DNA of 33,296 nucleotides from Actinomycetes bacterium (GTDB taxonomy: Bacteria; Actinomycetota; Acidimicrobiia; Acidimicrobiales; Ilumatobacteraceae). Both the position numbers and the translations under genes were made by a program. This document shows, one piece after another, positions 2,147 through 24,076 of this stretch. The notes beneath the pieces are model-generated. The model saw only the letters and a program-made list of their open reading frames with translations, did no database searches and had not been told where the DNA came from. The stretch is from the NCBI GenBank assembly GCA_025358125.1, contig JANYKS010000026.1, forward strand, positions 1 to 33,296, read 5' to 3'. Numbering within the stretch: position 1 is the stretch's first letter; each line of letters opens with the position of its first letter.

Positions 2147-2785
2147 TCACTGACCCTTCACAGCGTTGCGCACGATGACGACGCCACCGTTGGGGCCTGG
2201 CACCGAGCCTCTGACGAGCAGCAATCCGCGCTCGAGGTCGGCTTCGACGATTTCGAGGTTGAGCGTCGTGACCTGCTCGTTGCCCATGTGGCCGGCCATC
2301 TTGAGGCCTTTGAGCACACGTCCGGGGTAGCTGCAGGAGCCGATCGAGCCAGGGGCACGGTGGTGCTTGTGGTTACCGTGGCTCGCACCCTGGCCTTTGA
2401 AGTTGTGACGCTTCATGACACCGGCGGTGCCCTTACCACGGCTGATCGCGGTGACATCGACCTTCTGGCCCTTGACCAGGGTTTCGACTGTGATCTCCTG
2501 CCCGACGACGAAGCCGTCGACGCTCTCGAGCCGCAACTCGACGAGACGACGCCCGGGAGCGACGCCGGCTTTGGCGAAGTGGCCAGCTTCGGGCTTGGAC
2601 AGCTTCTTGGCATCTTTCACGCCATAGGTGACCTGAAGCGCGGTGTAGCCGTCGCGTTCGGTGGTCTTCACCTGGACCACCCGGGCCGGCTCGACGCGCA
2701 GCACCGTGACCGGGACAATCTTGTTGTCCTCAGCCCAGACCTGGGTCATGCCGACTTTTTCGCCGACGATCGCTTGTTGTGCCAT
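2147..2785 (-). CDS. rplC: 50S ribosomal protein L3
   Basis: L3 is one of the two proteins that nucleate 50S assembly, and its long loop reaches toward the peptidyl-transferase centre. The ATG at 2785 gives a 212-residue protein beginning [17 protein letters not shown], the standard L3 start. An AAAGG ribosome-binding site lies about ten bases upstream. The core motif [19 protein letters not shown] (loop around residues 130-150) and the [12 protein letters not shown] region are present. The open frame runs 38 codons further upstream but is not L3-like. In most bacteria rpsJ (S10) comes just before rplC; here the upstream 275 bases carry no S10 gene, so rplC is the first ribosomal gene of this unit. 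Confidence 0.96.
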
Positions 2786-3060
2786 GGCGGCAGCCTTTTC
2801 GTCCGGAACCGGGCGAACCCGGATACTTGGTGGGTACCAGTGATCTCGTTTCCGAGACCCATTCACGCAAATGCTCCGGGGGCAGGGCCCACGGAGCATC
2901 GAGATCAGTTGTCGCCGTGCGGTTCCCGCCGACCTGGTGTTGACGCAGGCAGGCGGGCATTCACGGACTTCGATTCGTCAAGACGTTGCCCAGGCCACGC
3001 TGACCCGGACACGACAAGGTGTGAAACTCTATCCAGGTCGCAGCGTTGATTCCACCCCGT
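2786..3060 (-). promoter_or_regulatory. Structured leader of the rplC operon
   Basis: This is the 275-base gap between iolG of operon A and rplC. Read on the minus strand toward rplC it contains three short, well-formed hairpins. An 8-bp stem ATGCTCCG/CGGAGCAT uses 2871-2878 with 2892-2899. A 5-bp stem TCTCG-GAAA-CGAGA (2844-2857) has a GNRA tetraloop. A stem CCGGG-TTCG-CCCGG (2809-2822) has a UUCG tetraloop. These precede the rplC ribosome-binding site. I see no convincing sigma-70 promoter and no strong terminator for the upstream iol operon, which reads in the same direction. A role in L4-type autoregulation is inference from its position. Confidence 0.55.
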
Positions 3061-4077: not shown

Positions 4078-4889
4078 TGGGGGGTCTCCTCGGGGGTTGG
4101 TTTGGGTGCCTCGCCGGCGCCCTGCACCGATTGGTCGAAGTCGACGACGGCACCCGTCATGAGCCCGCTCTCGTCGCTCAGCATGAACGCGATCGCCCGC
4201 GCGACCTCGGGCGGTTTGATCAGCCGCCCGGTCGGCTGGGCGGCCTCCGCCGTCTCCAGCCAACCGTCGGCTGCACCGTGGAACCGGCGCTGCACCGTGT
4301 CTTCTGCCGCGGTGTCCATCCAACCAGGGTTGATCTGGTTGACGCGGATGCCGTGGCGCATCAACGAATAGGCAGCGTTCTTCGTCAGGATGCTCAGGGC
4401 GCCCTTCGAAACGCTGTAGGCAAGGATGAACGGCTGCCCGCCGTGTCCGCTGACCGAACCGACGTTCACGATCGCGCCTTGGGTGCCTTCGCGGCGCATC
4501 AGACCCGCAGCCGCCTGGATCATCAAGAACGGCGCCCGGACGTTCACGGCCTGGATCTCGTCCCAGATCGCGATGTCGGTGCTCCAGATGTCGCCGCGGG
4601 TGGTCGAAGCCGCCACATTGACCAGCCCGTGGACCGTGGCGAACTCGCGATCGACGCCGGCCATCACCTCGAACGGCGCGTCCGGCGCGCTCAAGTCGGC
4701 CGCGATGTAGTGACAGCGGGTCGGGCCGGTGGAGAGTTCCGACGCGAGCGCCGCACCCTTGGCGCGGTCGCGCCCGACGATCACGACGCCCGCCGCGCCT
4801 CTGAACGCAACAAGGCGCGCGACGGCCTCGCCGAGGCCGTGGGTCCCGCCGCTGACGACGATCACCCGGCCACTGAGTTGCCCGGTCAT
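4074..4889 (-). CDS. SDR-family oxidoreductase in inositol operon A
   Basis: Short-chain dehydrogenase/reductase of 271 residues. It has the NAD(P)-binding glycine motif SGGTHGLG at 13-20 and the catalytic Ser145 (VNVGSVSG), Tyr158 and Lys162 (YSVSK). The C-terminal RVNQINPGWMDT segment is typical of classical SDRs. The substrate is not visible from sequence; its position between iolD and iolG suggests a second cyclitol or deoxy-sugar-acid oxidation step. The ATG at 4889 follows the iolD stop by one base, and its own stop overlaps iolG by four bases. A truncated SDR with a very similar N terminus (GGTQGLGEAVA versus GGTHGLGEAVA) lies at the right end of the window, beyond operon B, so both clusters seem to keep one. 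The last ~20 residues are a Pro/Glu-rich tail. Confidence 0.85.
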   Translation of the reverse strand: MTGQLSGRVIVVSGGTHGLGEAVARLVAFRGAAGVVIVGRDRAKGAALASELSTGPTRCHYIAADLSAPDAPFEVMAGVDREFATVHGLVNVAASTTRGDIWSTDIAIWDEIQAVNVRAPFLMIQAAAGLMRREGTQGAIVNVGSVSGHGGQPFILAYSVSKGALSILTKNAAYSLMRHGIRVNQINPGWMDTAAEDTVQRRFHGAADGWLETAEAAQPTGRLIKPPEVARAIAFMLSDESGLMTGAVVDFDQSVQGAGEAPKPTPEETPQ

Positions 4890-6740: not shown

Positions 6741-7916
6741 TCAATCCTCCCTCAGCGATCGGACGTCTTCCCAGCGCCCGCTCTCCCACGAGCGCAGGAC
6801 GGCGTCTTGCACACTCACGTAGCGAACGGCATCGCTGAACCCGGGTGTGTGCTCACGCCCTGCCGCCACCGATTCGAGGAACTCGTGGTCCTCGATGCAC
6901 ACGAGGTCTTCGAACCCGATGCCGTTGGCCGAACCCGGCACGAAGTTGCCGTGGTGGGGGAAGCGGTCGCCGCCGAACACAGTGGTGAACCCGGTGTGTT
7001 TGTGCTCGGCGGCGATGTACACACGGAGCTCGTTCATCTTCTCGAAGTTCCACGCGATCGAGCCCTTCGTCCCGTAGACCTCGAAGCTGTTCTGGCTCTC
7101 AGGGCCCATCATGGATCGGCACGCCTCGAACGTGCCCCGTGCACCGTTCGCGAACGTGCACAACATCGCGATGTAGTCCTCATTGGTCACCTCGCCGGTA
7201 GGGTCGCCGGGCTTGCCGCGATCGTAATGGGTGCCCGATTCGGTGGGCAGTGGCCGGCGCCGGATGAACGTCTCGCCGGTGCCGACGACGCGCGAGATGT
7301 CGCCGATCAAAAAATGGGCGAGGTCGACGGAGTGGCTGAGGATGTCCGTGCTGACGCCGTGTCCGGCGCCGTCGATGAGGAACCGCCACGACAGCAGACC
7401 CATCGGGTCGCTGCCGTACATGCTGAAGAACCGACCGTAGTAGTTGGTGACGGTTCCGATCAGCCCCTCGTCGATCATCTGCTTCGCGTACTGCACGAGC
7501 GGGACCCAGCGGTAGTTGTATCCGACGGCACTGATCACCCCGGCTCGACGCGCGGCCCGTTCGGCGATCACGGTCTGGGCCGGTGTGCCGCCGACGGGCT
7601 TTTCACAGAACACGTGCTTGCCATTCGCGGCGGCAGCTTCGACCATTTCGACGTGGAGCATGTTCGGGCTGGTGATGAAGACGACGTCGATCTCGGGGCT
7701 CGCCACAAGCTCGTGCCAGTCGGCGGTAGCACCCAAGAAACCGAACGACTCGACGGCATCGCGGCGACGTTCCTCCACGGTGTCGGCGGCCATGACCAGA
7801 TCGGGCTCGTACCCGCGCCCGAGGAAGTAGCTCGGCGCACGGCGGCAACCACGGCTGTGGGCCTGGCCCATCCATCCGAAGCCGATCACGCCGATTCCGA
7901 GCCTGACGCGGGTCAT
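6741..7916 (-). CDS. Gfo/Idh/MocA dehydrogenase, second type (operon A)
   Basis: A 391-residue NAD(P)-dependent dehydrogenase. The Rossmann motif GFGWMGQAHS lies at 12-21, the EKP lysine is K106, and the catalytic-type D191/H195 pair lies in STDILSHSVDLAHF. The N-terminal pattern (GFGWMGQAHSR plus a long second strand) places it near the levoglucosan/anhydro-sugar and scyllo-inositol dehydrogenase branch rather than with IolG. In this setting it probably oxidises a different cyclitol isomer from IolG; the exact substrate is inference. It starts at 7916 with ATG overlapping the iolB stop by one base. A clear paralogue lies in operon B at 25979, also next to iolD, so the pairing of this dehydrogenase with IolD is conserved. 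Confidence 0.82.
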   Translation of the reverse strand: MTRVRLGIGVIGFGWMGQAHSRGCRRAPSYFLGRGYEPDLVMAADTVEERRRDAVESFGFLGATADWHELVASPEIDVVFITSPNMLHVEMVEAAAANGKHVFCEKPVGGTPAQTVIAERAARRAGVISAVGYNYRWVPLVQYAKQMIDEGLIGTVTNYYGRFFSMYGSDPMGLLSWRFLIDGAGHGVSTDILSHSVDLAHFLIGDISRVVGTGETFIRRRPLPTESGTHYDRGKPGDPTGEVTNEDYIAMLCTFANGARGTFEACRSMMGPESQNSFEVYGTKGSIAWNFEKMNELRVYIAAEHKHTGFTTVFGGDRFPHHGNFVPGSANGIGFEDLVCIEDHEFLESVAAGREHTPGFSDAVRYVSVQDAVLRSWESGRWEDVRSLRED

Positions 7917-10673: not shown

Positions 10674-11453
10674 TCAACGGCCTTTCGACAGCTCGTGCTG
10701 GAGCGCCTCGAGCTCGGCCCCGCCCGACATGAGGCGGGTCAGTTCGGTGATCTCGATCTCGCTCTTGGCGAAGTCGCCGAGCGACTTGCCGCGGTTCAAC
10801 AGTAGGAACCGATCACCGACCGGGTAGGCATGCGAGGGGTTGTGGGTGATGAAGATCACACCGAGGCCGCGTTCGGCCGCAGCACGGATGTACTTCAGCA
10901 CGACGCCGGATTGACGAACGCCGAGCGCAGACGTGGGTTCGTCGAGGATCAGGACACGGGCGCCGAAGTAGACCGCGCGGGCGATGGCCACCGACTGGCG
11001 CTCGCCACCGGAGAGCGTGCCAACCGGCTGATCGATGTCACGAACGTCGATGCCCATCTTGAACATCTCTTCCTTCGCGGTCTTCCTCGCGAACGCCGAG
11101 TCCATCCACCTGATCGGACCGAGACCCTTCTTCGGCTCGGATCCCATGAAGAAGTTCCGCCACACCGACAACAGCGGCGCCAGCGCGAGGTCCTGGAACA
11201 CCGTCGCGATGCCCACCGCACGAGCGTCGCGGGGCGAACTGAACTCGACCGGCGAGTCATCGATCAGGCACTGCCCGGTGCTCGGGCGGTGCACGCCTGA
11301 CAGGATCTTGATGAGGGTGGACTTGCCGGCTCCGTTGTCGCCGAGCACACAGGTGACCTTGCCCGCTTCAACCGACGTGGAAATGTCTTCGAGCGCTGTG
11401 ACGTTGCCGAAGAACTTGGAGATGTGTTGCAGTTCGAGGATCTTGTCGGGCAT
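10674..11453 (-). CDS. Sugar/cyclitol ABC transporter ATPase (operon A)
   Basis: Energises import through the adjacent permease. The 259-residue protein is a single nucleotide-binding domain (the FrcA type, not the tandem RbsA type). It has Walker [10 protein letters not shown] (K44), the Q-loop VFQD (Q87), the signature LSGGERQ at 147-153, Walker B VLILDEP (E172) and the H-loop THN (H204). The start [16 protein letters not shown] at 11453 overlaps the permease stop (ATGA). The reading frame is open for another 1.9 kb upstream, but that portion is antisense-type low-complexity translation of the permease gene and is not real. A homologous ATPase is in operon B. Confidence 0.92.
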
Positions 11454-13549
11454 CAGCGAGCCTCCTGAGCCTTCTTGCGGGTGTAGTTGTTGACGAGCAC
11501 GGCGATCAGCAAGACGGCGCCCTTGAACGCAAATCGGCCGTCGGAGTTCCAGTTGGCCGAGCCGATGCCGTTGTCGGACATCGCGATGATCAGCGCGCCG
11601 ACCGACGCGCCGACGACGGATCCGTAGCCGCCGGTGAGCAGATTGCCGCCGACCACCGCCGCGATGATGTACAGGAACTCCGAGCCGTCGCCCTGGCTCG
11701 CCTGGACCGAGGTGAAGCGGAGCAGCACCATCACGCCGACGAAGCACCCGACCAGCGAGACGGTCACAAACAGCGCCGTCTTGACCTTGGCGGCCGGCAC
11801 GCCGATGGCCCGTGCGGCCTCCTTGTTGCCGCCGACGGCGAAGATCCAGTTGCCCCACTTCGTCTTCGTCAGGACGAACGCGCCGACGAGGGTCACGATG
11901 ATCCACCACAGGATCGACATGCGGGTGACGCTGAAGGCCTGATTGGCGCCCGGCTTGACGTTCGACACGTTCGTGAAGACCACCCGGATCATGAGACCGA
12001 TCACGACAAGGGCGGCGCCACCGGCCACGAGCCGGCGACCGAGGCGATCGGCCCTCTCGTGCATTTCGCGCCGCTTCTGCAACCGGGTTTCCAGCAGGGT
12101 GTTTGCGGTCAGCGCAGTCGCGCCGATCAGCATCGCCGCGAACAGGCCGCTGCGGAACCGCACCGCGCCGGAGTCGTTGCGGACCACGAATGCGAGGGCG
12201 ACGATCGCGACGACCGCGACCGCACCGACCGCCAACTGCAACGTGACGCTGACCCTGCCGGCGGCGGCCCGCGCCCTCAGCAGCATCGACAACCCGAGTG
12301 CCGAGAGGGCCATCATCGCGATGGCCCGCAGGGCCTGGACGGTAGTGAGCTGGAACAACGCGAGCGACCCCGCCAACAGCAGCAGTCCAACGCAGGCGGC
12401 GTACAGCAACGTCTGGACCGGACGGTACCACTGGAAGCGTTCCCGCGTGCGGGGCCACATGTGGCGCATCGCGATCGCGACGCCGGTCAGGGCGGCGACG
12501 ACACCCACGACCACGCGCACCGAGCTGGGGAACCACCTGAGGATCTCGCGGCGCTCGTTGCGTTTCAGCACGAGCGGTGCGAGGGACGCCAGCGCGACGG
12601 AAACGACGCCGCCGATCACCAACATTCGTACGGTCGTCGGCACGGACCGGGCTGCCGATGCGCCGGCCTGGTCCGTGCGGGGTTGATAGCGGCTCGTCGC
12701 CAGCGCGACCACCGCGACGACGACACCGACCGCGGCGACGATGCCCCACAGTGCGTTGTTGGCGACTCCGTCGGTGCGGTGCAACATTGCGAAGCCGAGC
12801 CCTGCCGCCACGACGCCGACCGTGCCGACCGGAACGAACTTCGTGTTGAGCGCGCTGCGCCGGATGAACGACTGCTCGAGCAACCCGGTGATGAGCAGCG
12901 CGCCGCCGAGCAACACGAGGGAGAGGAAGACGACATCGCGGCCGGTGAAGTTGTTCGGCTTGTAGTCGTACGCGAAGAAACGGTAGAAGCCCTTGTAACC
13001 CTTGGCCGTGTCCACGCCGCTGACGGACACCTTGTGCTCGAGCCGCTTGGCGAGCACGAGCGTGACACCCTTGAGCACGAAAAACGTCGCAAGCGTCACG
13101 ATGAAGCTCGGCAGGCCGGTGCGATTCACCAGCGAACCGTTGAAGAACCCGATCGCGCCCGCAACGATGAAGGCTGCGCCGACCGCCATCCACATCGGCG
13201 CGCCGGTGCGCATGAAGTACTTCACCATCAGCCCGACCATGATGCCGGTGGCGCCGGTCATCACGCCCGACGAGAGGTCGAACTCGCCGCCGATCATCAA
13301 CAGCGCGACGACGACGGCCATGATGCCGAGTGGAGCGGCGGCGTCGAGCACGATCAGGGTCGTTGCGGCGGTACCGAACGTGCGGCCGTTGCCCCAAAAG
13401 AAGGCCCAGACCAGCACCGCTCCGATGATCGCGCCGATCTCGGGGGACACGAGCAAGCGCTGGATCGGGCCGCGATGCGCGATGCGTTCATCTGCCGTCA
13501 CCACCTTGGCGGGCTCGGCAGGCTTCTCTGCGACAGCGACTCCGCTCAT
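11453..13549 (-). CDS. Oversized RbsC-like ABC permease (operon A)
   Basis: Membrane subunit of a carbohydrate ABC importer (BPD_transp_2/RbsC family). The protein is 698 residues, about twice the usual 310-350. Residues ~30-170 carry the family N-terminal half, including [12 protein letters not shown] (84-95) and [17 protein letters not shown]. Residues ~545-690 carry the C-terminal half with [10 protein letters not shown] (571-580) and the [16 protein letters not shown] coupling region (629-644). Between them (about 172-545) is an insertion with roughly nine or ten hydrophobic segments alternating with Arg-rich loops. The ATG at 13549 has a GGGGG ribosome-binding site just upstream; the frame extends 11 codons further without support. 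The operon B permease has the same architecture. Confidence 0.88.
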
Positions 13550-13677: not shown

Positions 13678-13950
13678 TCAGCGGGTGCCCTTCGCGACGA
13701 GCGCCGCGACCGTTTCGACGTTGTCCTTGGTGATGAAGCCGGGACCCGTGTACACTGGTAGCCCGCCACCGACGGTGTTGGCGTTGGTGATGTTGAGGTA
13801 CAAGAACACGACCGCCAGGTAACCCTGCAGGTACTGCTGCTGGTCGATGGTGAACGCAGCCTTGCCGGCCTTGATGTCGGCGAGGATATCGGTCGACAGG
13901 TCGACCGAGCCGATGGTCACCTTGCGGCCCAGTTCGGCGGCAGCCAGGAC
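13678..13950 (-). pseudogene. 3' remnant of a sugar-binding lipoprotein gene (operon A)
   Basis: Only the last ~90 codons of a periplasmic-binding-protein gene remain. The frame reads LAAAELGRKVTIG, then FTIDQQQYLQGY, TGPGFITKDN and a final KGTR, and it aligns along its length with the last ~90 residues of the operon B binding protein (LRAAKDLGRKVTIG, FTVDQQQYLQGY, TGPGFVTKDN, QGTR). Homology stops at about 13950 and an in-frame TGA lies just upstream (about 13961-13964 on the minus strand). No signal peptide or lipobox is present. The 5' part, the operon promoter and possibly an iolE gene (which precedes the binding protein in operon B) have been lost to the mobile-element region beyond. A GTG at 13920 could start an 80-residue peptide, but that is unlikely to be functional. 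Confidence 0.85.
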
Positions 13951-14258
13951 AGTAAGGCTAGGTCAATGGGATGCGCTCCCAGCCACTCAAGAATCGGCTC
14001 GCTCAGCGTGTGGGCGATCCAGTAGTCGGCCTCGTCGGCCTGCGCTGACGAGACCGACAACGGATCGCCATGGGCTGCATCGTTTCGGGCCTCGCACCAG
14101 TCGCGAACGCGCAACCACTCGGCGCAACGCCACGAAACGTGATGATCACCCAGATCCTGAAGGACGTTCAAGCGGTCTCGGTCCTTCTTCGAGTCTGGAG
14201 AGACGAAGATAAGGGCACACGGGTCTCGCCCCTACGCAGAGATCGTTGTTGTTCTGAC
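13951..14258 (-). other. Unrecognised DNA with a gene fragment
   Basis: About 300 bases between the truncated binding-protein gene and the IS256-family end. A minus-strand frame is open from about 14230 to 13917 (core reading from a TTG at 14171: LQDLGDHHVSWRCAEWL, then WIAHTLSEPILEWLGAHPID). It has plausible protein composition, with many Trp, Asp and Glu, and no close start site, so it may be the tail of an unrelated gene brought in by a rearrangement. I do not recognise the family. No promoter or RNA gene is apparent. Confidence 0.35.
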
Positions 14259-14530
14259 CGCGACAGCGTCCCGTGAAGTGGTGGGAATCAGCGGTGTGAT
14301 TCCTGGTGGTCTCAGGTGATGGCGAGGATGCCGTCGTCTGGGACGTGGTCAGTATCGCGCGTCGGGTAGAGCTTGGCCATTGAGGCTTCGGAGAGGTAGT
14401 GGCGGTGGGTTGCCCAGTCGTCGTGTTGCCCGGCGGGCACGGCGCCGACGAGACGAACGATGGCACCGTTGTTGGGGAAGTTCTGCAGGACGTTGGTTCG
14501 TCGTTTGATCTCTTTGTTCAACCGCGCGAG
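14259..14530 (-). mobile_element. IS256-family transposase 3' end (remnant)
   Basis: The minus-strand frame from 14530 to the TGA at 14312 encodes LARLNKEIKRRTNVLQNFPN, followed by a stretch with RLVGAV, GQHDDW and YLSEASMAKL. This is the characteristic C-terminal end of IS256-family (mutator-type) transposases, whose full length is about 400 residues; here only ~73 residues survive. Downstream, around 14259-14286, the sequence CACCACTTCACGGGACGCTG resembles the right end of such elements. The upstream boundary at 14530/14531 coincides exactly with the predicted 3' end of a group II intron, so the intron appears to have inserted into the transposase gene and the 5' part was later lost. Confidence 0.82.
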
Positions 14531-14815
14531 GTAGGGATCGGGCCGGGGCGCGGTGTCGTCGTTTCTGACGGTCCGTTTCCCCGACCCGTACCTCCGAACC
14601 GGACGTGCGTGTTCCCACGCATCCGGCTCTCCGCAGGTTCGTGTCGTTGGTCAGGCGGCGGTGTTGGTTGCTCGTGGCCATGGTGTCGGGATCCTGTTGC
14701 CTCGGTAGAGGTAGCGGTGACCGCCACCTTGCCGATGTCGAACAGGACAACGTCGCCATCTGTTGGCCACCACCCTGGGAGGTAGCGGCAATGGCGAATG
14801 TTCCGTTCTTTGGCG
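14531..14815 (-). mobile_element. Group II intron 3' end with maturase C-terminus
   Basis: Minus-strand reading. At about 14815-14651 is the C terminus of an intron-encoded reverse transcriptase/maturase: NIRHCRYLPGWWPTDG, then VLFDIGKVAVT. After a one-base deletion at about 14710 it resumes in the next frame with RYLYRGNRIPTPWP. Downstream comes a canonical 34-nt domain V (14596-14629), then a domain VI-like pairing region, and the element ends at 14531 with ...CCCTAC. The reverse-transcriptase domain proper and the intron 5' end are missing, so it is a dead 3' fragment. Confidence 0.8.
14596..14629 (-). ncRNA. Group II intron domain V
   Basis: A 34-nt hairpin on the minus strand beginning GAGCCGGATGCGTG and ending CACGCACGTCCGGTTC, closed by a GGAA (GNRA) tetraloop. 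It has the length, the AGC catalytic triad near the 5' end, the bulged middle and the terminal GUUC pairing of group II intron domain V. The domain looks intact although the intron around it is truncated. Confidence 0.85.
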
Positions 14816-14952
14816 GTAGCAGTCGTTGATTTCGACGTCGTGCAAGGTCGCTGACGTCGTTGACCAGCCAGCGCCGCGCCCCCGGCGGCGAACAGGACGG
14901 CCATGGACGAGCCGCCGATTACGCTCACACCGCTGATCCCCAATCTCAATGA

Positions 14953-15021
14953 GGCGCCCGCCAGGATGGCGATCCGGGCGGGCGCCTTGATTCAAGCACC
15001 AAGAGGGAGGTGCTTGAATCA
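14953..15021. repeat. Double-hairpin repeat, copy 1
   Basis: Two adjacent perfect stems. The first is GGCGCCCGCC/GGCGGGCGCC (14953-14962 with 14977-14986, 14-base loop). The second is TGATTCAAGCACC/GGTGCTTGAATCA (14988-15000 with 15009-15021), a 13-bp stem with the 8-base loop AAGAGGGA. Similarity to copy 2 continues past the stems for about 45 bases (AACAGCAGCCGGATCACGGC versus TACAGCAGCTGGATCGCGGC). Confidence 0.8.
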
Positions 15022-15600
15022 CAACGTCGAACGTAACAGCAGCCGGATCACGGCACGCGGTGAACATGACTGGGAGGCGCGGATCTTGGCGGCAGCCGGG
15101 AGACTCTCCGGTCTCGGCGGGGGCGACAGCGCCAGCCCGCTTCGCCAAGCGTTGATAAACAGTCCCTCGTTCTGTTCTGCAGGAAAGCTGTGACGAAATC
15201 TGGTGATCGTCAGGGCGCTCAACCGATTAGGCGCGAGAGGGACAGGATGAACTACGACTGTGCAGTGAGCGCAATCGTTCCAGACGTCGCCGACACGAGC
15301 TGGATCGGCCGCGGTGCGACGACATCGAGCAGCTGCGGGCCGACGGTCCAGTGACCACCGTGTTGGTGGACCACGCGGGGGCACAACGGCACGCCGCTAC
15401 TTGAGAGAATTTCAGGTCGGAGGAGCGATCGGGCGGCTGTCGACATTCCACAGGCGACCGTTTCTCGATCGGGAACGTCGCGCACCGCCCGGCTCGCACT
15501 GACTCGAACACACGAGGACACCTGCGCGATCCTGTCGTGCCGGGCCCTCGAAGGTTGGGAGGTTGGCACGGATGCCCTGTTTGGGTCAACGTTCCACTAC

Positions 15601-15669
15601 GGCGCCGGCCAGGACCGGGATTCCGACCAGCGCCTTGACCAAAGTACCAAGAGGGCGGTACTTGAATCA
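15601..15669. repeat. Double-hairpin repeat, copy 2
   Basis: Diverged second copy in the same orientation as copy 1. The first stem is GGCGCCGG/CCAGCGCC (15601-15608 with about 15627-15634, one mismatch). The second stem is AAGTACC/GGTACTT (about 15642-15648 with 15657-15663) around the loop AAGAGGGC. In the core of the second stem, C-G in copy 1 (AAGCACC/GGTGCTT) is replaced by T-A in copy 2 (AAGTACC/GGTACTT), a compensatory double change. The outer part of the stem has three mismatches. Confidence 0.78.
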
Positions 15670-15794
15670 CGGCGGTGGACATTACAGCAGCTGGATCGCG
15701 GCACGAAGTGAACGGCGCTGTCGCGTTCTTCGTTCGGATGTCGGGTCGAGACAAGATCTGACGTTGACTCGATCGATTCATCGAAGCGAGTTCG

Positions 15795-16067
15795 TGGAAT
15801 CCGGCAGCGCCACACACCGGCTACTTGACATAGGTCTCGTCGACGAACGAGCGTCGCCCCAGGGCATGGCGACAACACTCTCGGGCGGCGTCGATCAGCA
15901 ACGGTGTGAACCGCTGCAGCCAACTCTGAGGCGTCACTTGCTCCACGTCGACGCCGCCTTCGGCAAGGAGTTTTTCCAGATCTCGACGAGAGGGGGTCGC
16001 AGACATCAACGCATCGCCAACACGTCACGTCCGGCGGGAACCGGAACCCAGCGAACCCTGACGACAA
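15795..16067 (-). mobile_element. IS6-family transposase fragment, decayed
   Basis: Minus-strand remains of the N-terminal third of an IS6-type transposase. The frame at 16067 reads SSGFAGFRFPPDV, the usual start region. A second frame carries VLAMR followed by TGA in place of the expected Trp. The third frame (16009-15821) reads RRDLEKLLAEGGVDVEQVT, then QRFTPLLIDAARECCRHALG and FVDETYVK, ending in a stop. After a one-base loss at about 15824 the next frame continues VAGVWRC, the expected sequence of the catalytic core. Homology ends near 15795. Two frameshifts and one nonsense change make it clearly inactive. FVDETYVK contains the first catalytic Asp of the DDE triad. Confidence 0.8.
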
Positions 16068-16187
16068 CTGGCCGGACAGGGCAACACGACGTGACGCTTT
16101 TCAGGCATCCCCGCCCGACCGCACGCCATCCTCCGACGGACAGTGCCTCCGACGATTCTGAGGCCGTGGCCGAGAGCGGTTTTAGCT

Positions 16188-16868
16188 TTAGTTGCATCGA
16201 CCATTGGTGGAGGGGGTTCCGGGTATCGTTTGCAGCAGTGTTTGGAGTTCGGAGGAGTCCGTTGCGAAGCCGACTCCGTTGCGAGTGCGCGACCGTGCGT
16301 AGATGATGCCGATGACGTCGCCGGTCGACGACAGCACTGCTCCACCGGAGTCGCCGGCGGCGATGTCGGCGAGCATCTCTAGGCCGTGTCGTTTGACGGT
16401 CTGCTGGACGTAGATGTCCTCCATCGTGACGAGCAGTCGCTTGCTGACGGTGACCTTCCGGTCGGTCACTCCGTTGGCGCGGCTCCAGGTCAAGGTGGCG
16501 CCGGGGCCAGGTGCGCTGTGCCCGAGCTTCAGGGCGGGCGCGTTGAGGTCGGGCACGGCGAGTACAGCGAGATCACGGTCCTTGTCGAACGCGAGCACTG
16601 CGGCGGGGTGGAGGCCGCCGGCATGGTCGACGACCGAAATCGAGGTCGCACCTGCGATGGCGTGTGCCACGGTCACCACTTGGCCCCGACGGCCCACGAC
16701 GACGCCACTCGCCAAATGGGCGGTGAGCCCGCACCCCTCGGCGACGATCCCGACGGCGGAGTTGGCGGGTTCGGCATCGTCGGGAGCGGGCCCCGCCGAA
16801 CACGCTGCGGCGAGCACGGTCAAGGTTGCGCACACAGCAACGGCGAACGCTGGGTGCCTGGCGCTCAC
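16188..16868 (-). CDS. Trypsin-like serine protease, lipoprotein
   Basis: Predicted secreted, membrane-anchored serine protease of the chymotrypsin/trypsin fold. It has 226 residues: a signal peptide with lipobox LAAAC (Cys23), a short Pro/Asp-rich linker, and a catalytic triad H69 (VTVAHAI), D99 (KDRDLAVLAV) and S174 (AAGDSGGAV). The DRDLAVL and GDSGGAV motifs are typical of HtrA/trypsin-type domains; no PDZ domain follows. The start at 16868 is immediately after the stop of the upstream oxidoreductase (16869), so the two are probably co-transcribed with lacI. A role in inositol use is not evident; it may be a passenger joined to this transcript by rearrangement. Just downstream is the decayed IS6-type remnant. 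Confidence 0.82.
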   Translation of the reverse strand: MSARHPAFAVAVCATLTVLAAACSAGPAPDDAEPANSAVGIVAEGCGLTAHLASGVVVGRRGQVVTVAHAIAGATSISVVDHAGGLHPAAVLAFDKDRDLAVLAVPDLNAPALKLGHSAPGPGATLTWSRANGVTDRKVTVSKRLLVTMEDIYVQQTVKRHGLEMLADIAAGDSGGAVLSSTGDVIGIIYARSRTRNGVGFATDSSELQTLLQTIPGTPSTNGRCN

Positions 16869-19133: not shown

Positions 19134-20060
19134 ATGAGTGTGTTGGAACGGCTCGCTGGTGCCCCCATTTCCTGGGGCGTCTGCGAGGTTCCCGGGTGGG
19201 GCATCGAGTTGGCACCGCGGCGGGTCCTCGGCGAAATGCGGGACCTGGGCCTCACGGCCACCGAGCTCGGCTCCGACGGTTATCTGCCGACTGATGCTGC
19301 GGAGCTGAAGGACCTGTGCTCGGAGTTCGGGATCACCATGATTGGTGGGTTCGTCCCGCTCGTGGTGCATCAGCCCCAGGAGCTCGATGCCACCGTTCGG
19401 GCCGCTCGACGCGCTGCTGCTCTGATGTCGAGTGCCGGTGGCACGGTGTTCGTCACCTCGGCCGTGAGCGACTGGAACTGGGGTCCGCGTACGCCGCTTT
19501 CTCTCGCTGATTGGGAATTTGCGTCAACGACACTTGCCCGCATCGACGAGATCGTCGGTGAGTACGGGATGACGCAGGCCATCCATCCGCATCTGCGCAC
19601 GGTCCTTGAGACCCGGACTGACTTCGAGGCGCTGCTCGACGTGTCCGATGTCGGCTGGACCCTCGACACGGGACACATGCAGATCGGGGGGATGAGCCCG
19701 ATGGAGTTCATCGACCTGGCCTTCGACCGGATCCGTCACGTTCATCTCAAAGACGTCGTGATGGATCGCGCGGCACCGGTGTTCGCTGGCGATCAGTCGA
19801 TCATGGAAGGGGTGCAGGCCGGCATGTTCTGCAACCTCGGTTGCGGTGATGTCCCGATCGGCGAGGTTGTGACATCACTGGAAGCTCGCGGGTACGACCA
19901 CTGGTACGTGCTCGAACAAGACGCTGCCATCACTTCGGGGGAACCTGACGTCGGTGCTGGCCCAATTCTCGATGTTCAAGCGAGCATCGAGTTCCTCCGG
20001 GGGGTTGAGGCATCCGCCTCGACGAACGAGGAGAAACAAAACGAAAAGGGGAGTACATGA
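19134..20060 (+). CDS. iolE: Inosose dehydratase-like TIM-barrel protein
   Basis: Sugar phosphate isomerase/epimerase superfamily (AP endonuclease 2 fold), 308 residues. It most likely dehydrates scyllo-inosose (2-keto-myo-inositol) to the trihydroxy-dione used by IolD. Visible features are the start LAGAPISWGVCEVPGWG typical of IolE, the metal-site glutamate E44 (TATELGSDGYLP), the HPHLRT segment, WTLDTGHMQIGG, HVHLKDV and the final YVLEQDA. An IolH-type isomerase is the main alternative. The ATG at 19134 has an AGGGGG site about nine bases upstream. It is the first gene of operon B, and its stop overlaps the binding-protein start (ATGA). Operon A has no counterpart left. The last ~15 residues (NEEKQNEKGST) are a polar tail. 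Confidence 0.85.
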   Translation: MSVLERLAGAPISWGVCEVPGWGIELAPRRVLGEMRDLGLTATELGSDGYLPTDAAELKDLCSEFGITMIGGFVPLVVHQPQELDATVRAARRAAALMSSAGGTVFVTSAVSDWNWGPRTPLSLADWEFASTTLARIDEIVGEYGMTQAIHPHLRTVLETRTDFEALLDVSDVGWTLDTGHMQIGGMSPMEFIDLAFDRIRHVHLKDVVMDRAAPVFAGDQSIMEGVQAGMFCNLGCGDVPIGEVVTSLEARGYDHWYVLEQDAAITSGEPDVGAGPILDVQASIEFLRGVEASASTNEEKQNEKGST

Positions 20061-21157
20061 TCACATCCAAGAAATGGCTGGCATTCGTACCGGCCATGGC
20101 ACTCGTCGTCGCGTCCTGCAGCAGTTCTAGCGGGAGTGGGGCGGGCACCACCAGCGCCGGCGGGGGCGGCTCCGTCGCAGCAAGCGCCAGTTCCGTCGCG
20201 TCAAGCGCCGCCTCGTCCGGATCGAGCGCCAGCTCGGCGGCGACAACGGGGGCCTCCACCGGCGGTACCGAGGCCGTCAGCCAGACCCAGGCGGGTGACC
20301 TCACGTTCTACATGATCACCCACTCCGACGACGGTCCGTTTTGGTCGGTCGTGAAGCGTGGTGCAGAGCAGGCCGCCAAGGACCTCGGCGTCAAGCTCGT
20401 CTGGAAGCCAGGGAACAACGACCCGCAGGTGATGGTCAAGGACATCGAAGCGGCAGTGGCCGCCGGTGCGTCCGGCATTGCCGCGTCGCTGCCGAATGCT
20501 GACGCACTGGTTGGACCCCTGAAGGCCGCCGTTGCGGCCCACGTTCCGGTGATCACACTCAACTCGGGCTCCAAGGACTACCAGGCCATCGGGGCGCTGA
20601 CCCACGTCGGGCAGAGCGAGGATGTCGCCGGAAGTGGTGCTGGTGACCGCCTGAACGCAGCCGGTGCCAAGAAGGTCCTGTGTGCCCAGCAAGAGCAGGG
20701 CAACAGCGGCCTCACCGAGCGTTGTCAGGGTCTCGAGAAGAGCTTCAAGGGCAAGGTCGTCACACAGTTCGTCGGCCTCGATGCTGATACGACTGCGCAG
20801 CAGAACACGATCAACGCCGCGCTCGCTGCCGATCCGGCCATCGACGCCATTCTCGGCGTCGGCCCGGTGGTCACCATGTCGGCGCTTCGCGCAGCGAAGG
20901 ACCTCGGCCGGAAAGTCACCATCGGTGGGTTCGACCTCACGCCCGAACTGCTCGGAGCGATCCAGGCCGGCGACATCGCCTTCACCGTGGATCAGCAGCA
21001 GTACCTGCAGGGTTACATGCCGATTCTGTTGTTGTACCTCAACGTGACCAACCAGAACACCCTCGGTGGAGGTCTCCCGATCCTCACCGGGCCGGGCTTC
21101 GTCACCAAGGACAACGCCGCTGAAGTGATCAAGCTCAGCAAGCAGGGAACTCGCTGA
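20057..21157 (+). CDS. Sugar/cyclitol-binding lipoprotein of ABC transporter (operon B)
   Basis: Extracytoplasmic substrate-binding protein (periplasmic-binding type 1, RbsB-like), 366 residues. It has a signal peptide with lipobox VASC (Cys21), a Ser/Ala/Gly/Thr-rich linker from 22 to about 75, and then the two-lobed domain starting LTFYMITHSDDGPFWSVVKRGAEQA, which contains the usual DDGPFW-type binding-site start. The hinge region near the C terminus reads GGFDLTPELLGAIQAGDIAFTVDQQQYLQGY. Expected ligand: inositol or an isomer, from context. It overlaps iolE by four bases. The 3' end aligns with the truncated gene fragment at 13678-13950. A strong hairpin downstream probably keeps its transcript level above that of the permease. 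Confidence 0.93.
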   Translation: MITSKKWLAFVPAMALVVASCSSSSGSGAGTTSAGGGGSVAASASSVASSAASSGSSASSAATTGASTGGTEAVSQTQAGDLTFYMITHSDDGPFWSVVKRGAEQAAKDLGVKLVWKPGNNDPQVMVKDIEAAVAAGASGIAASLPNADALVGPLKAAVAAHVPVITLNSGSKDYQAIGALTHVGQSEDVAGSGAGDRLNAAGAKKVLCAQQEQGNSGLTERCQGLEKSFKGKVVTQFVGLDADTTAQQNTINAALAADPAIDAILGVGPVVTMSALRAAKDLGRKVTIGGFDLTPELLGAIQAGDIAFTVDQQQYLQGYMPILLLYLNVTNQNTLGGGLPILTGPGFVTKDNAAEVIKLSKQGTR

Positions 21158-21168
21158 GACCCGTGTGA

Positions 21169-21237
21169 GCCGTCGCATTCGGCGACGGCCTACATGACAC
21201 TCCAGGGGGGTGGAACCGAGCCGCTCGGTTCCACCCC
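21169..21237 (+). terminator. Two strong hairpins after the binding-protein gene (operon B)
   Basis: The first is GCCGTCGC/GCGACGGC (21169-21176 with 21182-21189, 5-base loop). The second is a perfect 14-bp stem GGGGTGGAACCGAG/CTCGGTTCCACCCC (21207-21220 with 21224-21237) with a 3-base loop. No T-run follows, so partial termination or 3'-end protection of the binding-protein mRNA is more likely than complete termination. Confidence 0.75.
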
Positions 21238-21277
21238 GCCTGATGTTGACCGGCGCGAAGTTTGGTTGGAGGAACCC

Positions 21278-23227
21278 TTGACGACAATCGACAAACCATC
21301 GGTGCAGCCGGCGGAGCCCGAGCTCATGGTCGCCAATCGTGGTGCGACGGCATCAGCTGTTGCGCCCGACGGCGACGAGCGCCTTGCCTACCGTTCGGTG
21401 TTCCAGCGCCTCTTCATGCGCCCGGAGGTCGGCGCCATCATTGGCGCTGTTGGCATCTGGACGTTCTTCTGGGCCGTGTCCGGAACGTTCGGGACCGTGG
21501 GCCAGACATTCGGTTGGTTGGACACTGCGGCGACGCTTGGCATCATGGCTGTCGCTGTCTCGATGTTGATGATCGGCGGCGAGTTCGACTTGTCATCGGG
21601 CGCCATGACGGGCGCGATGGGAATGCTGATCATCTACCTGGTCAAGGCGACGGGCGCCCTCGGAGGCCGTGGGTTTCCGCTCGAACTGGCAATCCCGCTG
21701 TCCCTTGCCCTTGCGCTGGGGATTGGCTACCTCAACGGATGGATGGTCGAGCGAACGGGGCAGCCGAGCTTCATCATCACGCTCGGCACATTCTTCGCAT
21801 TGATCGGGCTCAAGCTCGGCCTGGCGAAGCGTTTCGTCGGCCAGATTCAAATCGGCCGCACCGACGAGGCATCGGACTTCAAGTACTTTCGCCCGTTCTT
21901 CGCAGCTGAATGGGAGCGCAACAAGCATGAGTTCGCCCAGCGCGACTTCTGGTACATCGCTCTCGTGGCAGCAGGGGTTCTGATCTCGATTCTTGCGGTC
22001 TGTGAGCTGTGGTTCAAGCGGCGTGCCGAGCCGAAGGCAACCGGACTCGTTCAGTTCCTTGTCAGCGCTGCGGTTGGAATCGCTGCAGGCATCGGGCTCA
22101 ACGTCACCGATGGGGTTGGCGCAAACCTCGCGATCGGCGTGTTGATAGCGCTGTGCATCGTCGTCGGGCTGCACGGATGGGTGTCGTGGCGATACGAGCC
22201 AATCGGCGAACGCGGTTCCGTGGCGTTGGATTCGACAATGATACGACGGACTGTGCTGGGCTTGGCTCTCGTGGTGCTCGGCGGAGTCGTAGCCGTGGTC
22301 ATGGACTCGAAATCGACCAACAACTTCGTGTTCCCGTTCACCACCCAGGGCGTGCGCGTGATGCTTGCATCCGCACTCGGCGTCGCAGGCCTCACGTTGC
22401 TGGCGATGGTCTCCCAGGCTGCGTTGCGCGTGAATGCGGCGTCAAAGTTCATTGCCACGTCAGCGCTTGCGCTCGGCATCGCTGTGATCGCGGCGACGAT
22501 CTACATCGCTTCGAAAGCGCCCAAGTTTCGAGCCGCGTTGTTCCCGTTCCTGCTCTTCTTGGCCGTGTTGATCTTCACGTGGGGAATGCTTGCATCCAGG
22601 TTCGCAGAGCGGCGCGCGGTGGCTGCACGTGCGGATCGATTGGGCAACCGAATGTTGGCCCTTGGAATCCTGAGTGTGCTCATCGGGCTGGCGATACGAA
22701 TGCTCTTCATCACCAAGGCCGAATTGCTTGCCGGAGTGCCGCCGGCAAAGACGTCGGTACGACTGTTGTGGTTCGCATTGTTCACCGCAGCAATGATGTG
22801 GGTGCTGGCTCGGACACGGTTCGGGAGCTGGACCTTCGCAGTCGGCGGCAACAAAGAGGCGGCTCGCCAGGTGGGTGTGCCCGCTGCGCGCACCAAGACG
22901 AAGCTGTTCATGCTCGTCGCGTTCGCAGCCTGGTTCGTGGGCATTCTCGTCGCGTTCCGGATCAACTCGATCCAGGCCAATGCGGGTGATGGGCAAGAGT
23001 TCCTGTACATCATCGCAGCCGTGGTCGGCGGGACGCTGCTGACTGGCGGTTACGGCTCAGCATTCGGAGGCGCGATCGGCGCCTGCATCATGTCGATTCC
23101 GTTGATCGGCATCTCGAGTGCCCGGTGGAACACCGACTGGCGCTTCCTCATCATTGGGACGATCCTGCTGCTCGCAGTGGTGTCGAATCGGTATCTCCGC
23201 ACCAAGGCCGGGGCGGTTCGGCGTTGA
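21278..23227 (+). CDS. Oversized RbsC-like ABC permease (operon B)
   Basis: Membrane subunit of the cyclitol importer, 649 residues. The N-terminal family half (about 45-185) includes [19 protein letters not shown] and GQPSFIITLGTFFALIG. The C-terminal half (about 495-640) includes [18 protein letters not shown] and [21 protein letters not shown]. The middle ~310 residues (187-495) are an insertion with about eight hydrophobic segments, for example 225-245, 283-302, 325-342, 390-411 and 420-439. I choose the TTG at 21278: a GGAGGA ribosome-binding site sits five bases upstream, while the ATG at 21194 has none and lies among the hairpins. The open frame upstream therefore belongs to the leader. 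Confidence 0.87.
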   Translation: MTTIDKPSVQPAEPELMVANRGATASAVAPDGDERLAYRSVFQRLFMRPEVGAIIGAVGIWTFFWAVSGTFGTVGQTFGWLDTAATLGIMAVAVSMLMIGGEFDLSSGAMTGAMGMLIIYLVKATGALGGRGFPLELAIPLSLALALGIGYLNGWMVERTGQPSFIITLGTFFALIGLKLGLAKRFVGQIQIGRTDEASDFKYFRPFFAAEWERNKHEFAQRDFWYIALVAAGVLISILAVCELWFKRRAEPKATGLVQFLVSAAVGIAAGIGLNVTDGVGANLAIGVLIALCIVVGLHGWVSWRYEPIGERGSVALDSTMIRRTVLGLALVVLGGVVAVVMDSKSTNNFVFPFTTQGVRVMLASALGVAGLTLLAMVSQAALRVNAASKFIATSALALGIAVIAATIYIASKAPKFRAALFPFLLFLAVLIFTWGMLASRFAERRAVAARADRLGNRMLALGILSVLIGLAIRMLFITKAELLAGVPPAKTSVRLLWFALFTAAMMWVLARTRFGSWTFAVGGNKEAARQVGVPAARTKTKLFMLVAFAAWFVGILVAFRINSIQANAGDGQEFLYIIAAVVGGTLLTGGYGSAFGGAIGACIMSIPLIGISSARWNTDWRFLIIGTILLLAVVSNRYLRTKAGAVRR

Positions 23228-23263: not shown

Positions 23264-24076
23264 ATGTCTGAGCACGCCCTCCTCGAACTCGACAACATCT
23301 CGAAGTACTACGGCAACATCATCGCCCTCTCCGGGGTGAGTACATCGGTCGCCGCCGGCGAGGTGACGTGCGTGCTCGGCGACAACGGTGCCGGCAAGTC
23401 GAGCCTCATCAAGATCCTGGCCGGTGTCCATCAGCCGACCGAAGGCTCGATTCGCATGAACGGCGAAGAGGTGTCGTTCGCATCGCCTCGTGAGGCACTC
23501 GATCACGGGATCGCCACCGTGTATCAGGATCTTGCGATGGTTCCGCTCATGTCGGTCTGGCGGAATTTCTTCCTCGGATCGGAACCAACAAAGGGGCTTG
23601 GACCGTTCAAATTCATCGACACCGCGAAGGCGAAGCAGATCACCAAGGACGAGTTGACCAAGATGGGCATCGACATCCGCGATACGGAGCAACCCGTCGG
23701 AACGCTGTCCGGTGGCGAACGCCAATCCGTCGCCATCGCTCGCGCCGGCTACTTCGGTGCAAAGGTCCTCATCCTCGACGAGCCAACTTCCGCGCTCGGC
23801 GTGAAGCAATCGGGCGTCGTGTTGAAGCGCATCGTCGAAGCTCGCAACAACGGACTGGCGGTGATCTTCATCACCCACAACCCTCGGCACGCCTACCCGG
23901 TGGGCGACCGCTTCCTCATCCTCAACCGCGGTCACTCGATGGGCTCTTTCGCAAAGGATGAGATAGCGATCGACGACCTCACGCGTCTCATGGCTGGTGG
24001 CGCCGAACTCGAAGCGCTCGAGCACGAACTCCAAGCCAGCGGAGCATCGTCTGACCGCCCTCTCGCGCAGCGATGA
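23264..24076 (+). CDS. Sugar/cyclitol ABC transporter ATPase (operon B)
   Basis: Single-domain ATPase of 270 residues, paralogous to the operon A protein with a one-residue offset. Walker A is GDNGAGKSS (K45), the signature LSGGERQ, Walker B VLILDEP and the H-loop THN (H205). [18 protein letters not shown] is the expected start; a GGAGG site lies about seven bases upstream of the ATG at 23264. It is 36 bases behind the permease and overlaps iolC by four bases. Only one nucleotide-binding domain is encoded, so it must act as a homodimer. Confidence 0.93.

Follow-up and report, generated by a model that had tools for sequence, protein, structure and literature searches.

The window (the whole 33,296-nucleotide stretch of DNA analysed here) encodes an RbsC-type permease in which a first-pass annotation had noticed a large membrane block between the two conserved halves of the protein. 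This raises the question of whether the block is an assembly artefact, a second permease built into the first, or a membrane domain of its own – and, if the last, what it would do for an ABC importer.

Permeases and operons

The window contains two paralogous inositol-type gene clusters, operons A and B (Table 1), each with a permease of the same type. The two permeases score 113 bits (A) and 111 bits (B) against PF02653 (BPD_transp_2), with a gathering score of 26.8; this family matches each of them in two stretches, and no other Pfam family reaches its cut-off. Alignment of A with B likewise breaks into two separate pieces, with identities of 42% and 44%. Scores against NF040906 (XylH/GguB) were 120.2 bits for A and 92.9 bits for B, short of the curated cut-off of 450. 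The stop codon of permease A shares bases with the start codon of the ATPase gene (TGATG, 11451–11455).

Table 1. Permeases, inserted blocks and associated transport genes in the window
Feature	Coordinates	Strand	Description
ABC ATPase of operon A	10674–11453	minus	single-domain, 259 aa, PF00005
Permease A	11453–13549	minus	RbsC/CUT2-type (BPD_transp_2), 698 aa, open frame without stop
Inserted block of A	11924–12955	minus	residues ~199–542; five hairpins, 10 helices
Fifth hairpin of A	12350–12547	minus	residues ~335–400; absent from B and the other four-hairpin forms in the alignments
Binding-protein gene of operon A, 3' remnant	13681–13944	minus	88 aa
Substrate-binding protein of operon B	20057–21157	plus	366 aa, lipobox-like start
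Permease B	21194–23227	plus	RbsC/CUT2-type, 677 aa, paralogue of A
Inserted block of B	21920–22753	plus	residues ~243–520; four hairpins, 8 helices
ABC ATPase of operon B	23264–24076	plus	single-domain, 270 aa, PF00005

Operon B has a complete set of binding protein, permease and ATPase. The nearest NCBIfam model to its binding protein is the rhizopine binding protein, at 221 of 420 bits and so below cut-off. The binding-protein remnant of operon A is 63% identical to the end of this protein, and the DNA upstream of the remnant (13945–16868) has no resemblance to the rest of a binding-protein gene. A search of the window's own genome at E ≤ 1e-5 returned only these two as binding-protein matches. 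A 113-nt direct repeat, 77% identical, lies between the two operons (14953–15065 and 15601–15713).

Operon A is an inositol catabolism gene cluster, encoding IolB, IolC and IolD proteins that all score above their NCBIfam cut-offs. An IolE-like protein reaches 135 of 290 bits, below cut-off. For an IolG-like dehydrogenase (6744–7916, minus), the nearest model is levoglucosan dehydrogenase (303 of 650 bits), with inositol 2-dehydrogenase behind it (118 of 355 bits), both below cut-off. From this context the substrate of the importers is predicted to be inositol or of inositol type. Two ribosomal protein genes at 1228–2139 and 2150–2896 (minus) flank the iol region; they encode L3 and L4, the latter with a C-terminal extension that matches the 'sunset' domain above cut-off. 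A tRNA-Ala call inside an SDR-like ORF (4784–4866, minus) is probably a false positive.

The inserted block

The block lies in the extracytoplasmic loop that separates core helix 5, which starts SFIVTL, from core helix 6. With the threshold used, there are 17 hydropathy peaks in permease A and 15 in permease B, of which 10 and 8 fall in the block (residues 206–525 in A, 252–506 in B). The claim of a real extra membrane domain was borne out for both copies, as was the claim that the number of helices about doubles, with 8–10 block helices on top of the core. By hydropathy, neither permease keeps to the ~10 helices per chain usual for CUT2; provided that the core has the usual 10, A would have about 20 in total and B about 18. 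The extent first proposed, residues ~172–545 or ~370 residues, was right as to the insertion and needs some adjustment at its borders. These were set by alignment against insert-less relatives, and because residues 172–198 have a counterpart there, as part of the ordinary loop, the insertion in A starts at ~199 and measures ~340 residues; that in B measures ~278 aa.

Counted from SFIVTL to the GGN motif, the gap measures 419 aa in A, compared with 353 aa in B. In insert-less permeases it is 76–84 aa (14 rows of the core tree described below) or 77–80 aa (8 loci in a sample of 143 genomes of the class). Across the loci, gaps of 63–84 aa hold no helices, 128–141 aa two, 353–363 aa eight, 401–436 aa ten, and 460–477 aa twelve. 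In one set of loci (L183–L208, 23 of 26 readable) the gaps were 353–412, 77–80 or 63 aa, with 132–141 aa in those of XylH type. A search of the 143 genomes with the C-terminal half (E ≤ 1e-30) found eight copies of 636–736 aa with the block and eight of 348–407 aa without it. In the searches made, ordinary RbsC homologues lack the block, which disposes of the objection that it might be a common part of the family.

No known family accounts for the block. A Pfam search with the block alone from six members gave no family common to them, the best match (Bax1-I, 1.6e-4) occurring in one of the six. The best PDB match to the block had a non-significant E of 2.9, and phmmer searches (E ≤ 1) with the insert-less permease and with XylH found no solved structure of a relative. 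No such block was found described in a literature search of titles and the beginnings of abstracts.

An error of assembly, a fusion or a frameshift might be suspected, as the window's assembly is in 118 contigs and one titled record (L037) has a permease frame broken within the block, next to an undetermined residue. This reading is refuted, and its probability is negligible: among the 19 loci of titled genome records the other 18 have the same block in frame, and so do 33 loci of 33 further genomes of the class (with 8, 10 or 12 helices). The block is also under purifying selection. Its dN/dS is 0.053–0.233 over 18 pairs, far below 1, with dS above 1 in four pairs, where the values are rough. 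The same comparison gave 0.002–0.099 for the core, some dS being saturated, and evolution is faster in the block.

In all, permeases A and B are very probably 10-helix CUT2 (RbsC-type) permeases of predicted cyclitol/inositol-type ABC importers, with an inserted membrane domain.

Distribution

Of 395 genomes of the class, 35 (among them the window's own) matched a profile of the block at E ≤ 1e-6. In the family the profile matched 33 of 150 genomes at E ≤ 1e-4, and a part of these matches was read. In the phylum, a search with permease A matched 48 of 396 genomes at E ≤ 1e-30, and the block profile gave seven matches at E ≤ 0.01 in a draw of equal size (396). Three of the seven are true (G000, G069, G263), all in the window's class, and the other four are weak (E 0.001–0.007). 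Other permeases of the phylum with both halves listed have the halves 0–54 nt apart; in phylum genomes with one half listed, the absence of the block rests on the block-profile search. None of the 761 plasmid records with a permease match had a single place covering 80% of permease A. Phyla beyond Actinomycetota were covered by a scan for close relatives and by the plasmid collection.

The 19 related loci come from records titled Acidimicrobiaceae, Acidimicrobium, Ilumatobacteraceae or Ferrithrix, or only Actinomycetota, Actinobacteria or Actinomycetes, and these titles point to the class Acidimicrobiia. Within the searches made, the block thus appears to be confined to this class. At every locus read it sits only within this permease. 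Four block-matching frames are short (G624, 265 aa; G852, 432 aa; G853, 316 aa; G822, 221 aa), and two of these, G624 and G853, begin at the start of a contig. In the window's own genome, the block profile gave one weak match outside the permeases (contig C33, E 0.008).

Helix counts were made in 33 of the 35 class genomes, leaving out the window's own genome and the contig-edge G624. At these 33 loci the ATPase gene always adjoins the permease gene, and a binding protein is encoded at 31, the other two (L103, L120) stopping at a contig edge. In all but one (L130), some gene of the stretch is related, at 40% identity or more, to a gene of the window's iol cluster. The binding proteins look like lipoproteins: of the 48 read, 47 have a lipobox-like cysteine by pattern search, with some matches spuriously far upstream, and that of L104 has none.

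Comparison with known permeases

With RbsC/AraH-type CUT2 permeases (PF02653) the A/B group shares the gene order binding protein – permease – ATPase, but it has 8–12 additional helices inserted between helices 5 and 6 of the core. For 17 CUT2 proteins, a survey of ABC uptake porters gives TMS numbers of 7–12 (PMC3654945); the block-bearing permeases would have about 18–22 if their core has the usual 10. Insert-less permeases of inositol operons in other Actinomycetota (for example L043/L135, 355 aa) have similar operon genes and identities of 57% in the C half and 46–48% in the N half, with 79 aa from SFIVTL to GGN and no block. Insert-less relatives (L134, L135) are thus found in a similar type of operon with up to 57% C-half identity.

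Permeases of the XylH/GguB type (NF040906) carry a single extra hairpin in the same loop (128–141 aa, two helices), unlike the four to six of the block. Two helices were found in this loop in all 22 XylH/GguB-type loci read (28 fetched), in E. coli XylH, and in seven further loci of the 143-genome sample (L202 being the same place as L156). The loop between helices 5 and 6 is therefore a known place for extra helices, and what is new in the block is its size, its conservation and its variable number of hairpins. The shared site makes it conceivable that the block arose by expansion of the XylH/GguB hairpin, but this is rather doubtful: the best match between the two (E 8.5e-4) is no better than noise, reversed controls among the block hairpins reaching 1e-4, the nearest core relatives have no hairpin at the site, and forms with two or three hairpins were not seen among the loci read.

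The first-pass annotation had also suggested that one chain might act as a pseudo-dimer, the block being a degenerate second permease. FhuB is an example of the ABC uptake permeases with 20 TMSs in a single chain. Such permeases are described as having arisen by duplication of 10 TMSs to 20 (PMC3654945). The resemblance to these lies in the ~20 helices per chain; they consist of two 10-helix copies, whereas the block does not resemble the core. The PF02653 match in A does enter the block (residues 406–684), and two of 81 hairpin pairs between A-type blocks and the core reach E 5e-4 and 9e-4, but reversed hairpin controls reach 1e-4. The whole block scores E 0.07 and 0.10 against the core halves, no better than reversed-sequence controls (0.03–0.08), and among the 25 of 27 families listed for the block on its own (E ≤ 10), BPD_transp_2 does not appear. 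The variable number of hairpins also argues against a second permease. With a block so unlike the permease core, the pseudo-dimer is rejected as highly improbable, and the earlier observation that the block holds no second set of permease motifs is upheld. One core pair at 5e-7 in the hairpin comparison proved to be an overlap artefact of 11 columns.

Number and history of hairpins

The block is an array of hairpins. In the 33 class loci, 16 have 8 helices, 9 have 10 and 8 have 12, so that four hairpins are the commonest number and five or six the others found. The helices of L123 (7 or 8 by hydropathy, depending on threshold) and L109 (11) were counted by alignment. A base of 8 helices is common to the block-bearing permeases in the alignment. 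In A, as in several further lineages, the fifth hairpin follows base helix 4; L127 and L133 have a different fifth hairpin, after helix 1, and the 12-helix forms have an added hairpin in the cytoplasmic loop preceding the last helix.

A core tree computed without the block has 53 rows, 38 of them insert-bearing and 14 insert-less. All 38 insert-bearing rows lie on one side of a branch with support of 87/99, below the starred level, and the 12-helix forms make up one group (100/100). A single origin of the block has moderate, not decisive, support from this best tree. The cores of the insert-bearing permeases also have signature residues, such as a lysine after GGN, presumably in the coupling loop, that is found in 38 of 38 insert-bearing and 1 of 14 insert-less rows. 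Provided that the hairpin following helix 4 is one and the same in all lineages, it requires at least three changes among the insert-bearing rows; each of the other two extra hairpins requires one. The tree thus gives moderate support to at least five changes of hairpin number after the origin.

Some hairpins resemble each other. Base helices 1–2 match 7–8 at E 1.1e-6, with 1e-4 for the best reversed control (296 pairs), which supports their homology. The match of helices 1–4 to 5–8 (E 5.7e-5, reversed 3.5e-4 and 2e-3) is driven by this pair. The extra hairpin of L127/L133 resembles its neighbor, with Smith-Waterman z values of 6.6 and 5.4 (L133) and 2.8 and 3.4 (L127). Its profile E is 3.2e-5, where the best reversed match for this hairpin is 7.4e-4; the lead over the strongest reversed match in any set is just threefold. 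This resemblance makes tandem duplication likely there. For the hairpin added in the 12-helix forms the results are mixed (z 6.7 in L115; profile 1e-3, worse than the reversed 2e-4), and duplication is therefore not claimed. All these z values are the best of 813 unit pairs, uncorrected family-wise. The remaining hairpin pairs showed no similarity clearly above noise.

Sidedness and conserved residues

The loops of the block obey the positive-inside rule. With loop sides assigned by helix parity from hydropathy, K+R make up a fraction of 0.216 in cytoplasmic and 0.115 in outer loops; L109, with its odd count, was excluded, which leaves 27 of 28 sequences. The short outer loops are the most conserved part, with a mean conservation of 0.472 against 0.378 in cytoplasmic loops and 0.329 in helices (p 0.005 and 4e-6). 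The outer ends that flank the block have values of 0.457–0.509 and belong partly to the ordinary loop. Motifs on the outer face include TD..N, T.Q..R and S...KFR; T.Q..R is kept in 28 of 28 block-bearing alignment rows, with 4, 5 or 6 hairpins. Conserved outer residues include T108, D109, T186, Q188, R191, K247 and R249 in the gap numbering of B. There are also conserved cytoplasmic residues (E74, W135-R136, R276 and D284, same numbering), which make a function on the inner side possible.

Possible role of the block

As a whole, the observations are best explained by a CUT2 permease with a lineage-specific hairpin domain that would serve as an outer-face scaffold, a reading for and against which the chances are about even. 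With a core, an ATPase and an operon of ordinary appearance, the importer should go through the transport cycle usual for CUT2, and since insert-less relatives occur in the same type of operon, the block should be dispensable for transport itself. The hairpins may pack beside the permease core, adjoining the gate-side loop, and form a membrane scaffold that would present a conserved polar outer face near the substrate entrance. This face might aid docking of the binding protein or shape the entrance vestibule; the block would be neither directly coupled to ATP nor a second translocation unit. The outer-face role itself is tentative and somewhat less probable than the reading as a whole. Counting against it, permease A retains the outer motifs though its own binding-protein gene is a remnant.

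The hairpins might instead only stabilize the permease or its dimer, with no specific role on the outer face and with near-neutral changes in number. The variation from four to six hairpins among relatives and the weaker constraint on the block than on the core would fit this, but the higher conservation of the outer loops within the block, and a T.Q..R motif kept whatever the number of hairpins, make it rather unlikely. Recruitment of a partner, in which the block would dock another membrane or lipid component and add a function to the importer, is suggested by the conserved residues on both faces; it is less likely still, as among 16 probes with window proteins only the ATPase and binding protein are near-constant neighbors. 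A further possibility, speculative and quite improbable, is that an undescribed domain growing by hairpins builds its own substrate-capturing vestibule, in an importer with a shared binding protein or no dedicated one – a reading for which the intact permease and binding-protein remnant of operon A can be cited.

For CUT2 permeases, the loop between helices 5 and 6 stands out as tolerant of insertion: the loci read have 0, 1, 4, 5 or 6 hairpins there. With a conserved core and, at a single loop, 8, 10 or 12 added helices that vary in even steps among related genomes, these permeases offer a natural series for the study of domain gain. They would also allow a test of whether added helices in the membrane change the encounter of an ABC importer with its binding protein.
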